Shown: in pieces, positions 27,506 through 35,371 of the stretch | How the letters are laid out: every line of letters starts with the position of its first letter | How positions within the stretch are numbered: the stretch's first letter is position 1 | From: Flavobacteriales bacterium | Lineage (GTDB): Bacteria; Bacteroidota; Bacteroidia; Flavobacteriales; BACL11 | Assembly: GCA_018647945.1 (NCBI GenBank) | Contig: JABGSE010000032.1 | Span: 1 to 37,328, forward strand | Length of the DNA: 37,328 nucleotides | Reading direction: 5' to 3' | Notes under the pieces: generated by a model | Seen by the model: the letters and a program-made list of their open reading frames with translations, nothing else | Databases searched by the model: none | What the model was told of the DNA's origin: nothing | Made by a program: the position numbers and the translations under genes

Positions 27506-27513
27506 TACTTTTG
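27506..27513 (+). promoter_or_regulatory. -7 box TACTTTTG for tdk-alr
   Basis: Perfect match, 31 nt before the tdk ATG. Only TTAA separates it from the opposing box, so the two promoters should exclude each other. Confidence 0.6.
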
Positions 27514-27517
27514 TTAA

Positions 27518-27525
27518 CAAACATA
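27518..27525 (-). promoter_or_regulatory. -7 box TATGTTTG for the DUF2279 gene
   Basis: Perfect match on the minus strand, 34 nt before the ATG at 27483. Together with the opposing box it creates a 12-bp palindrome, TTTGTTAACAAA, at 27510-27521. Confidence 0.6.
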
Positions 27526-32677: not shown

Positions 32678-33445
32678 TTATTTTCTTTTTCGTTTATTTG
32701 ATTTGGTGATGTAATGATCTAAAGCCATGGACATAGAAGGAAATTTTTTATTTGGAACCTCAATATCCACAATCAAATCTTGGTCTTTTATTGATTTTAC
32801 TGTTGTTGGACCAAAAGCCGCTAATCTTGTTTCTTCCTGTTCAAATTCTGGAAAATTTTCATATAAAGAAGTAATTCCTGTTGGACTATAAAAAACAATA
32901 ATATCATATTTTACATGTTCCAAGTCCGAAAGATCGGAAGCTACTACCTTAAACATCACTGCTTTTGTATAATCTAATTCGCTTTCTTCCAGGGATTTAT
33001 TTATTTTGTCTTTTAACAAATCCGAACATGGAAGTAAAAACTTACTTTCTTTGTGTTTTTCCATTAATGGAATTAAGCTCGAAAAAACTTGCTCTCCAAT
33101 AAAAACTTTTCTTTTTCTATAAGAAATAAAGTTTTGTAAATAATGTGCAATCGCCTCCGATATGCAAAAATATTTTGTTTGGTCTGGAATTCTTAATCTC
33201 AATTTTTCCATCATTCCAAAATAATGATCCATTGCATTTTTTGATGTAAAAATTACAGCATTATGATTCAATAAGGAAATTCTCTGCTCTCTAAATTCCA
33301 ATGCAGAAATTTCATCTACCTGAATAAATGGTCTGTAATGTAGCTTCAGCTTATGCTTTTCGGCTAATGCGTGATATGGCGTCTTTGCTTCTGGTTCTGG
33401 CTGAGAAATTAAAATAGATTTTACCTTTCTTTGTCTTTCTTTCAT
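32678..33445 (-). CDS. hemD: Uroporphyrinogen-III synthase
   Basis: A 255-residue two-domain enzyme that closes hydroxymethylbilane with inversion of ring D. Sequence conservation is weak in this family. The support is I-L-I-S-Q-P-E-P at the start, A-V-I-F-T-S-K-N-A-M-D-H-Y at about 64-76, D-I-I-V-F-Y-S-P-T-G-I near 180, and A-A-F-G-P-T-T near 209, all in HemD order. The tail is Lys/Arg rich. It starts 16 bp after the DUF4271 gene, a neighbour of hemD in many Bacteroidota. No other tetrapyrrole gene is nearby apart from ctaB. Confidence 0.85.
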   Translation of the reverse strand: MKERQRKVKSILISQPEPEAKTPYHALAEKHKLKLHYRPFIQVDEISALEFREQRISLLNHNAVIFTSKNAMDHYFGMMEKLRLRIPDQTKYFCISEAIAHYLQNFISYRKRKVFIGEQVFSSLIPLMEKHKESKFLLPCSDLLKDKINKSLEESELDYTKAVMFKVVASDLSDLEHVKYDIIVFYSPTGITSLYENFPEFEQEETRLAAFGPTTVKSIKDQDLIVDIEVPNKKFPSMSMALDHYITKSNKRKRK

Positions 33446-33461
33446 TCTTTTATTTTAATAT

Positions 33462-34157
33462 TTACGCAAAAACAATTCCTCTATAAAGTAGCAAGAGAGG
33501 AAAAAATTCAAGAGTGCAAATATAAATAAATAAATAAAACCTGGAAAGCCCAAAAGAGTTTATTCCAATTTTCCATAGCCAAAATAATTTTAACACAAAA
33601 AATAGGAGTAAAAAAAGGAAGATTAAAATCTCCATAGAGTCTGCAAAATTAAAATTCGAAAAATGAAGTATTACTAGAAGGGGAAAGATAAATAATGCAA
33701 AAACTTTATCGAACAAAGTAGTGAAAAACAATGCCAAACGAGAGATTTGTTTCATCTGTAATAAAACTCCTAAAAATTGGATTAATAAATATTTTACTAA
33801 ATAATATACACTTACAAAGAAAAAAACTACAAATATTGTAGAATATGTATTTTCAAAATGAGGGTTTACTCCCCAAATAAACAAACTTACATTTATAATT
33901 AACAGAATATAAAACAAGATATTTATCCTAAAAGTAAAGACGTTTTCCTCTCTCAAATACTGATTTGCATATCGCTGAGCAAATATTCCATAAATATATT
34001 GCTTGCTTTGCTTTAAATGAAATGCATACAAAACAGCTATTATCAGTAGAGAAAAGGTAAGGAAAATAAAACTTATATCCTGATTATTTATATTTAAGTC
34101 TATTACATTCAATATTAAAAAATTAAAGAACAAAGATACTGATAAGAGATTATTCAA
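33462..34157 (-). CDS. DUF4271 polytopic membrane protein
   Basis: A 231-residue protein with six or seven hydrophobic segments and a cytoplasmic-looking stretch at about 48-75 (L-K-Q-S-K-Q-Y-I-Y-G, then Y-L-R-E-E-N-V-F-T). Its layout and position directly upstream of hemD match DUF4271. No ATG occurs near the start of the frame; the best start is a TTG at 34157, 8 nt after a perfect -7 box. Function is unknown. Linkage to hemD hints at heme-related membrane work, but the sequence shows no heme motif. Confidence 0.75.
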   Translation of the reverse strand: MNNLLSVSLFFNFLILNVIDLNINNQDISFIFLTFSLLIIAVLYAFHLKQSKQYIYGIFAQRYANQYLREENVFTFRINILFYILLIINVSLFIWGVNPHFENTYSTIFVVFFFVSVYYLVKYLLIQFLGVLLQMKQISRLALFFTTLFDKVFALFIFPLLVILHFSNFNFADSMEILIFLFLLLFFVLKLFWLWKIGINSFGLSRFYLFIYICTLEFFPLLLLYRGIVFA

Positions 34158-34165
34158 TACTTTTG
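34158..34165 (+). promoter_or_regulatory. -7 box TACTTTTG for the acyl-CoA dehydrogenase gene
   Basis: Perfect TAnnTTTG match, 27 nt before the ATG at 34193. It directly touches the opposing box. Confidence 0.6.
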
Positions 34166-34173
34166 CAAAGATA
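34166..34173 (-). promoter_or_regulatory. -7 box TATCTTTG for DUF4271-hemD
   Basis: Perfect match, 8 nt before the TTG start at 34157. With the neighbouring box it forms the near-palindrome TACTTTTG|CAAAGATA. Confidence 0.6.
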
Positions 34174-34192
34174 AAAATTTAAAAAAAGAATT

Positions 34193-35371
34193 ATGTCACA
34201 AGATTTATACCAAGCACCAGATTATTTTTTGATGGATGACCTCCTTACAGAAGAACATAAATTAATTAGAGACGCTGCTAGAGAATGGGTAAAAAGGGAA
34301 GTTTCTCCAATAATTGAGGAAGCTTGCCAAAAAGCGGAATTCCCAAAACAAATTATAAAAGGATTAGGTGAAATTGGTGGTTTTGGACCATATATCCCTG
34401 TAAAATATGGTGGTGCTGGATTGGATCAAATTTCTTACGGACTTATAATGCAAGAACTTGAAAGAGGAGATAGTGGAATTCGTTCTACCTCATCTGTTCA
34501 ATCATCATTGGTAATGTACCCAATTTGGAAATACGGAAGTGAAGAACAAAAAATGAAATTTTTGCCAAAATTAGCAACTGGAGAATTTATCGGTTGTTTT
34601 GGATTGACTGAACCTGACCATGGTTCAAATCCTGGAGGAATGACAACCAATATTAAAGATATGGGAGATCATTTCCTTTTAAATGGCGCTAAAATGTGGA
34701 TTTCGAACGCACCCTTTGCTGATATTGCTGTAGTATGGGCAAAAAATGAAGAAGGAAGAATAAAAGGTGTGTTAGTGGAAAGAGGAATGGTAGGATTCAC
34801 AACTCCAGAAACACATGGGAAATGGAGTTTGAGAGCTTCAGCAACTGGAGAATTAGTTTTTGATAATGTAAAAATCCCTAAGGATAATATTTTACCAAAT
34901 AAAGATGGTTTGGGAGCTCCACTAGGATGTTTGGACTCTGCTAGGTATGGAATTGCTTGGGGAACAATAGGTACTGCAATGGATTGTTATGATACTGCTC
35001 TTAGATATGCAAAACAAAGAGTTCAGTTTGGGAAACCAATTGCTGCTTTCCAATTGCAACAAAAGAAATTGGCTGAAATGATTACTGAAATTACCAAAGC
35101 TCAGTTTTTAACTTGGCGTTTAGGCGTATTGAGAAATGAAGGAAGAGCAACTACTGCACAAATTTCTATGTGTAAACGTAACAATGTAGATATGGCACTT
35201 AAAATTGCCAGAGAAGCAAGGCAAATATTAGGAGCTATGGGAATTACAGGAGAATATTCTATCATGAGACATATGATGAACTTGGAATCTGTTATTACTT
35301 ATGAGGGTACACATGATATTCACTTGTTGATTACAGGAATGGATATTACTGGAGAGAATGCTTTTAAATAG
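34193..35371 (+). CDS. Acyl-CoA dehydrogenase, glutaryl-CoA dehydrogenase subfamily
   Basis: A 392-residue FAD flavoenzyme. The stretch S-V-Q-S-S-L-V-M-Y-P-I with Y-G-S-E-E-Q-K, and G-C-F-G-L-T-E-P-D at about 143-151, are close to glutaryl-CoA dehydrogenases. Residues matching the human substrate Arg and Ser are R97 and S101, and the catalytic base is E371 (ITYEGTHDIHL). It probably oxidises and decarboxylates glutaryl-CoA to crotonyl-CoA in lysine or tryptophan breakdown, passing electrons to ETF. Residue equivalences are by eye. It overlaps the DUF3817 gene by 14 bp. Confidence 0.9.
   Translation: MSQDLYQAPDYFLMDDLLTEEHKLIRDAAREWVKREVSPIIEEACQKAEFPKQIIKGLGEIGGFGPYIPVKYGGAGLDQISYGLIMQELERGDSGIRSTSSVQSSLVMYPIWKYGSEEQKMKFLPKLATGEFIGCFGLTEPDHGSNPGGMTTNIKDMGDHFLLNGAKMWISNAPFADIAVVWAKNEEGRIKGVLVERGMVGFTTPETHGKWSLRASATGELVFDNVKIPKDNILPNKDGLGAPLGCLDSARYGIAWGTIGTAMDCYDTALRYAKQRVQFGKPIAAFQLQQKKLAEMITEITKAQFLTWRLGVLRNEGRATTAQISMCKRNNVDMALKIAREARQILGAMGITGEYSIMRHMMNLESVITYEGTHDIHLLITGMDITGENAFK

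Follow-up and report, generated by a model that had tools for sequence, protein, structure and literature searches.

A probable compact divergent promoter region with two outward-facing -7 boxes between the acyl-CoA dehydrogenase and DUF4271-hemD genes of a Flavobacteriales bacterium

In the Flavobacteriales bacterium under study, the acyl-CoA dehydrogenase gene and the DUF4271 and hemD genes are separated by what is best taken for a compact two-way promoter of the ordinary kind. Most probably, this region carries divergent sigma-A promoters in a compact arrangement, with two outward-facing -7 boxes, located at 34138-34131 on the minus strand and at 34158-34165 on the plus strand of the window (the whole analysed stretch of DNA, 37,328 nucleotides; Table 1). 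TATCTTTG, the predicted box of the minus strand, and TACTTTTG, that of the plus strand, end a strongly conserved 37-bp block, 34130-34166, in which 35 of the 37 columns are invariant in the alignment of six congeneric genomes, as compared with 45 of 113 columns in the N-terminal part of DUF4271 and 43 of 60 at the start of the dehydrogenase. The leader 34174-34192, which precedes the dehydrogenase ATG, is fairly conserved too (15 of 19 columns in the six genomes), which counts against this explanation.

Table 1. Features of the divergent locus, in window coordinates
Feature	Position	Strand	Evidence
hemD, 16 bp downstream of DUF4271	32678..33445	-	PF02602, E 1e-27
DUF4271 gene from likely TTG start	33462..34112	-	PF14093, E 1.3e-19 (reading frame from 34157)
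Likely DUF4271 start codon, in-frame TTG	34110..34112	-	Read from sequence; aligned with the ATG of congeners
Predicted -7 box TATCTTTG of DUF4271-hemD	34131..34138	-	CAAAnnTA in 30/30 loci, CAAAGATA in 23/30; 8/8 columns invariant, six genomes
Spacer between the kept boxes, 19 bp	34139..34157	.	17/19 columns invariant, six genomes
Predicted -7 box TACTTTTG of the acyl-CoA dehydrogenase gene	34158..34165	+	TAnnTTTG in 29/30 loci; 8/8 columns invariant, six genomes
Minus half of the reported dyad, TATCTTTG	34166..34173	-	Not kept; facing pair in 1/30 loci; 4/8 columns invariant, six genomes
Acyl-CoA dehydrogenase gene	34193..35371	+	PF02771, PF02770, PF00441

The preliminary description of this site had drawn attention to a near-palindromic 16-bp pattern, in which a box for the dehydrogenase directly touches an inverse box for DUF4271-hemD. 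The pattern is indeed present: TACTTTTGCAAAGATA lies at exactly 34158-34173 and fits TAnnTTTGCAAAnnTA, and the flanking genes are those described, acyl-CoA dehydrogenase on the plus strand and, on the minus strand, DUF4271 and HemD. The match to TAnnTTTGCAAAnnTA is unique in the window, with at least one match occurring in 4 of 100 dinucleotide shuffles, and the whole genome (1.62 Mb, 99 contigs) contains 5 such dyads with no base between the boxes (N0). Lone TAnnTTTG boxes number 70 in the window versus 63 expected, which is no clear excess, as 22 of 100 shuffles reach 70.

The two halves of the dyad fared differently in the comparison of orthologous loci. DUF4271 was found in 43 of the 60 genomes searched, the own genome included; the locus was extracted from 30 of these 43, all from one family, the other 13 matching genomes lying outside the locus comparison. 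The dehydrogenase gene is divergent from DUF4271-hemD at every one of the 30 loci. The plus half, proposed as the dehydrogenase box, is absent in one locus only (L056), and this assignment is supported. That of the minus half as the box of DUF4271-hemD is not: facing boxes separated by 0-8 bp occur in the own genome and at no other of the 30 loci, and it is a different minus box, CAAAnnTA to the left and no more than 110 bp away, that is kept at all of them. At the distant loci L062-L064, L066 and L067 the left box is a weaker CAAAnnTA match, 80-89 bp upstream, which could be due to chance. Two copies of the minus octamer TATCTTTG lie near the locus, at 34173-34166 (in the dyad) and at 34138-34131; since the relatives keep the latter copy and not the former, the preliminary description evidently settled on the wrong one of the two, and the inverse half of the dyad is, judging by this comparison, a recent lineage-specific match, i.e., a chance copy. 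The kept pair faces outward, with 19 bp between the boxes; measured from start to start, they are 27 bp apart in L052 as well as in the six congeneric genomes, and the 22 other loci possessing both boxes show 40-61 bp. In the congener G005 the kept outward pair was encountered on two contigs (C2 about 119377 and C30 about 418) with matching neighbouring pairs, the second copy being probably an assembly duplicate.

The dehydrogenase box was also followed in a wider scan of named genomes comprising the best 80 of 589 related stretches, 79 of which, with at least 60 bp upstream, were used: among them, TAnnTTTG begins 20-45 bp before the start codon, i.e., in a like place, in 57 of 79, a reverse-oriented box was found in that interval in 0 of 79, a facing N0-8 pair was present in one (L086), and hemD was divergent within the flank (up to 1.5 kb) in L068 only, which is probably the same locus as L043.

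Read from TTG 34157, the DUF4271 frame comprises 231 residues and touches the dyad. In 5 of 5 congeners an ATG is found 79-80 bp (about 80) before the dehydrogenase start, and in the congener L043 a stop lies between the DUF4271 ATG and the left box. DUF4271 thus appears, from the alignment, to start at TTG 34112-34110, and with the start codon at this place the left box fits as the box of DUF4271-hemD. Transcription starts were predicted by placing the -7 box at -12 to -5, the position given for TAnnTTTG in F. psychrophilum sigma-A promoters in the excerpted text of PMC9723704. By this rule, the start predicted from the left box lies near 34126, giving a 14-nt leader, while the minus half of the dyad predicts a start at 34161 with a 49-nt leader.

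According to the preferred explanation, the plus box would drive the acyl-CoA dehydrogenase gene from approximately 34170, as predicted from its position, and the minus box at 34138-34131 would drive DUF4271-hemD from approximately 34126, the predicted starts being 44 bp apart. Each kept box would sit at the -33 contact of the opposite promoter, so two polymerases should exclude one another if both promoters act in this organism, and a regulatory effect, conceivably a link between haem synthesis and acyl-CoA oxidation, may follow. That one polymerase excludes another at such a distance is expected from the size of the enzyme. A TAnnTTTG box shortly upstream of the gene, the trait common to this site and to the Bacteroidota sigma-A promoters as excerpted from PMC9723704 and PMC7366714, was found on both sides of the locus and in the wider scan at the frequencies given above. 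The site differs from these promoters in that, by reading the sequence, no -33 TTTG was found at the usual distance from either kept box; nor do the two excerpts deal with divergent boxes that overlap. The lack of this TTTG counts against the explanation, as does locus L065, where the plus box is just 12 bp ahead of the gene; yet the -33 TTTG is apparently not a strict requirement, since it was likewise not identifiable in F. johnsoniae, according to the excerpt of PMC7366714.

Among the alternatives, the one that survives best, though we consider it rather unlikely, combines both minus boxes: DUF4271-hemD would be transcribed mainly from the left box, and in this species the newly arisen inverse half would provide a second, weaker minus start competing with the dehydrogenase promoter. 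The inverse half fits the full consensus, and such halves arise easily, because C and CAAA often follow intergenic TAnnTTTG: in the own genome, counted with the inclusion of the window and of 20 stretches picked from contigs with facing-pair matches, C directly follows 43% of 223 intergenic versus 18% of 924 coding boxes, and CAAA follows 17 of 223 versus 12 of 924. These figures bear out the preliminary guess that the TTTGC habit makes the dyad easy to evolve, and on the preferred explanation, too, the inverse half would be a recent match helped by the C and A bases usual after -7 boxes. Against the combined arrangement, transcription from the inverse half would run through the kept box, and with the facing pair at a single locus conservation gives no test of it. 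Less probable still is that the conserved block or the palindrome is, beyond core promoter elements, an operator bound by a dimeric regulator. Conservation of the spacer nearly equals that of the boxes, more than boxes alone would require, but by eye the spacer is hardly symmetric; the palindromic form was set low, as the palindrome is not kept in relatives and facing pairs elsewhere differ in spacer length and centre. In the near-invariant spacer 34139-34157 itself no known element was recognised, and a regulator site there is possible. Finally, that the dyad itself serves as a bidirectional promoter with starts at about 34161 (minus) and 34170 (plus) and reciprocal expression of both gene groups is very improbable, for although the consensus is perfect on both strands and the predicted starts, 9 bp apart, fall inside the 7-25 bp range of bidirectional promoters (PMC10268837, in excerpt), the minus half is poorly conserved and a box of identical sequence is kept nearer the DUF4271 start.

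Beyond this locus, facing boxes recur in the genus. Three whole congeneric genomes contain 85 facing N0-8 pairs (32, 29 and 24; 3.15 per spacer), 132 facing N9-38 pairs (35, 57 and 40; 1.47 per spacer) and 181 outward N0-29 pairs (62, 58 and 61; 2.01 per spacer), and the backward-read control for facing N0-8 gave 2, 2 and 7. By class, the 85 pairs comprise 41 divergent (16/32, 13/29 and 12/24), 27 coding, 15 co-directional, 1 convergent and 1 at a contig edge; at least three of the coding labels (L283, L287 and L273) look like miscalled divergent gaps, because their orthologues were called divergent, the genes for gap counts having been called by a simple script that missed or misplaced some. 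As to N0 dyads, six genomes hold 27 of them (backward control, 1), of which 11 are divergent, 7 co-directional, 8 coding and 1 at a contig edge. That N0 dyads are special to divergent genes is not supported; one kept N0 dyad, which sits between co-directional genes, speaks against N0 as their mark.

Short divergent gaps by themselves favour facing pairs, and enrichment was tested by shuffling box positions between gaps of like length. The sample, drawn without regard to matches, consisted of every fifth own contig (13 gaps) and the stretches of relatives (140 gaps), with the window left out. In these 153 divergent gaps 8 facing pairs were observed versus 4.6 expected (p=0.065, not significant), i.e., 1 versus 0.5 in the own gaps and 7 versus 4.2 in those of the relatives (p=0.105). 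N0 alone, one of several spacers looked at, gave 4 versus 0.74 in the relatives' 140 gaps (p=0.005). By class, the same sample holds 8 facing pairs in divergent, 3 in co-directional and 10 in coding positions, the difference of divergent from co-directional being not significant (p=0.22) and that from coding significant (p=0.0001). An excess of facing pairs beyond gap geometry is at most suggested by these counts. Two other figures, 12 versus 4.7 expected in 59 own gaps, which was the first obtained, and the pooled 19 versus 8.0, were discarded because 20 own stretches came from contigs already known to have matches. As for other layouts, the gap offsets showed no peak for a recurrent outward 27-bp start-to-start arrangement, and the sampled gaps gave no example of shared-TA layouts (offsets +4 and +6). 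Of the proposal that facing boxes form a recurring promoter type, one part holds, as such boxes are met repeatedly between divergent genes, in some cases preserved in congeners; the other, enrichment beyond gap geometry, did not reach significance (the above p=0.065).

Preservation was followed in orthologous gaps, i.e., gaps flanked by relatives of both neighbours, in a hand tally of the gap groups. For eight of the 16 own divergent facing pairs, the orthologous gap of G003 or G005 also contains a facing pair, with an unchanged spacer in 6 cases, and the reported dyad is not among the eight; for the other classes the corresponding figures are 1 of 10 (coding) and 2 of 5 (co-directional). The clearest kept divergent case is an N6 pair separating a TPR gene from a RecF-type gene; it lies 8 bp ahead of the recF start, and 6 of 6 congeneric genomes have it there. 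N6 pairs kept in three genomes lie between mutS and a SpoU-type methylase gene, between the genes of HU and an HhH-GPD/NUDIX protein (glycosylase), and between the Usp gene and a phosphorylase gene, and an N7 pair in three genomes separates a CofH/MqnC-type radical SAM gene from an M17 peptidase gene. The kept co-directional pairs are the N0 dyad mentioned above and an N6 pair touching a tRNA-Arg gene. The latter lies directly 5' of this gene (L036 2486-2507, L256 1501-1522) and is shared by three genomes that keep it; the second arm of the pair points to the 3' end of a convergent gene and may make antisense or no RNA. The window holds a second facing pair at 27506-27525, TACTTTTG-N4-CAAACATA, flanked by the genes for thymidine kinase (27545, plus) and a DUF2279 protein (27483, minus); it was rejected as a pair kept with the same spacer, the orthologous gaps of two congeners having N8 in different surroundings.

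These data raise a tentative possibility, to which we give some chance while holding it doubtful on the whole, that the genus uses facing -7 boxes, 0-8 bp and often 6 bp apart, as a selected promoter class in which both predicted starts would lie in a single melted stretch of a few bases, common to the two; the reported site would then be a young, unfixed example beside the older outward-facing pair.

The nearest known systems come from E. coli and Salmonella, namely the bidirectional promoters described by Warman, Grainger and colleagues (PMC12825309, PMC10268837, both in excerpt), in which one short core serves both strands, mostly between divergent genes on chromosomes; polymerases cannot bind both ways at once, and the symmetry of the box makes such promoters easy to evolve, in all of which they are similar to the facing pairs considered here. 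The facing dyads of the genus resemble those members of the class with starts about 10 bp apart. In E. coli and Salmonella, however, the -10 element is shared or overlapping and the starts are usually 18 bp apart, whereas here the box is TAnnTTTG. Moreover, bidirectional promoters are defined by divergent starts 7-25 bp apart (PMC10268837), and both the kept outward pair and the N6 facing pairs, with predicted starts 3 bp apart by arithmetic from the -12 to -5 rule, would fall outside this definition. According to the excerpt of PMC12825309, basal activity was too low for competition in all five E. coli bidirectional promoters tested, and repression was seen once one direction was strongly activated; by analogy, reciprocal control would not be the default at such promoters. 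A limited literature search found no paper on bidirectional promoters in Bacteroidota.

Taken together, the comparison of this locus with its relatives indicates that half of a palindrome lying between divergent genes may be accidental even where it fits the consensus perfectly, and that relatives can tell which box counts. The kept facing boxes, in turn, provide concrete loci for asking whether Bacteroidota share divergent core promoters like those of E. coli; the Bacteroidota version would differ in its box and perhaps also in the spacing of its start sites.
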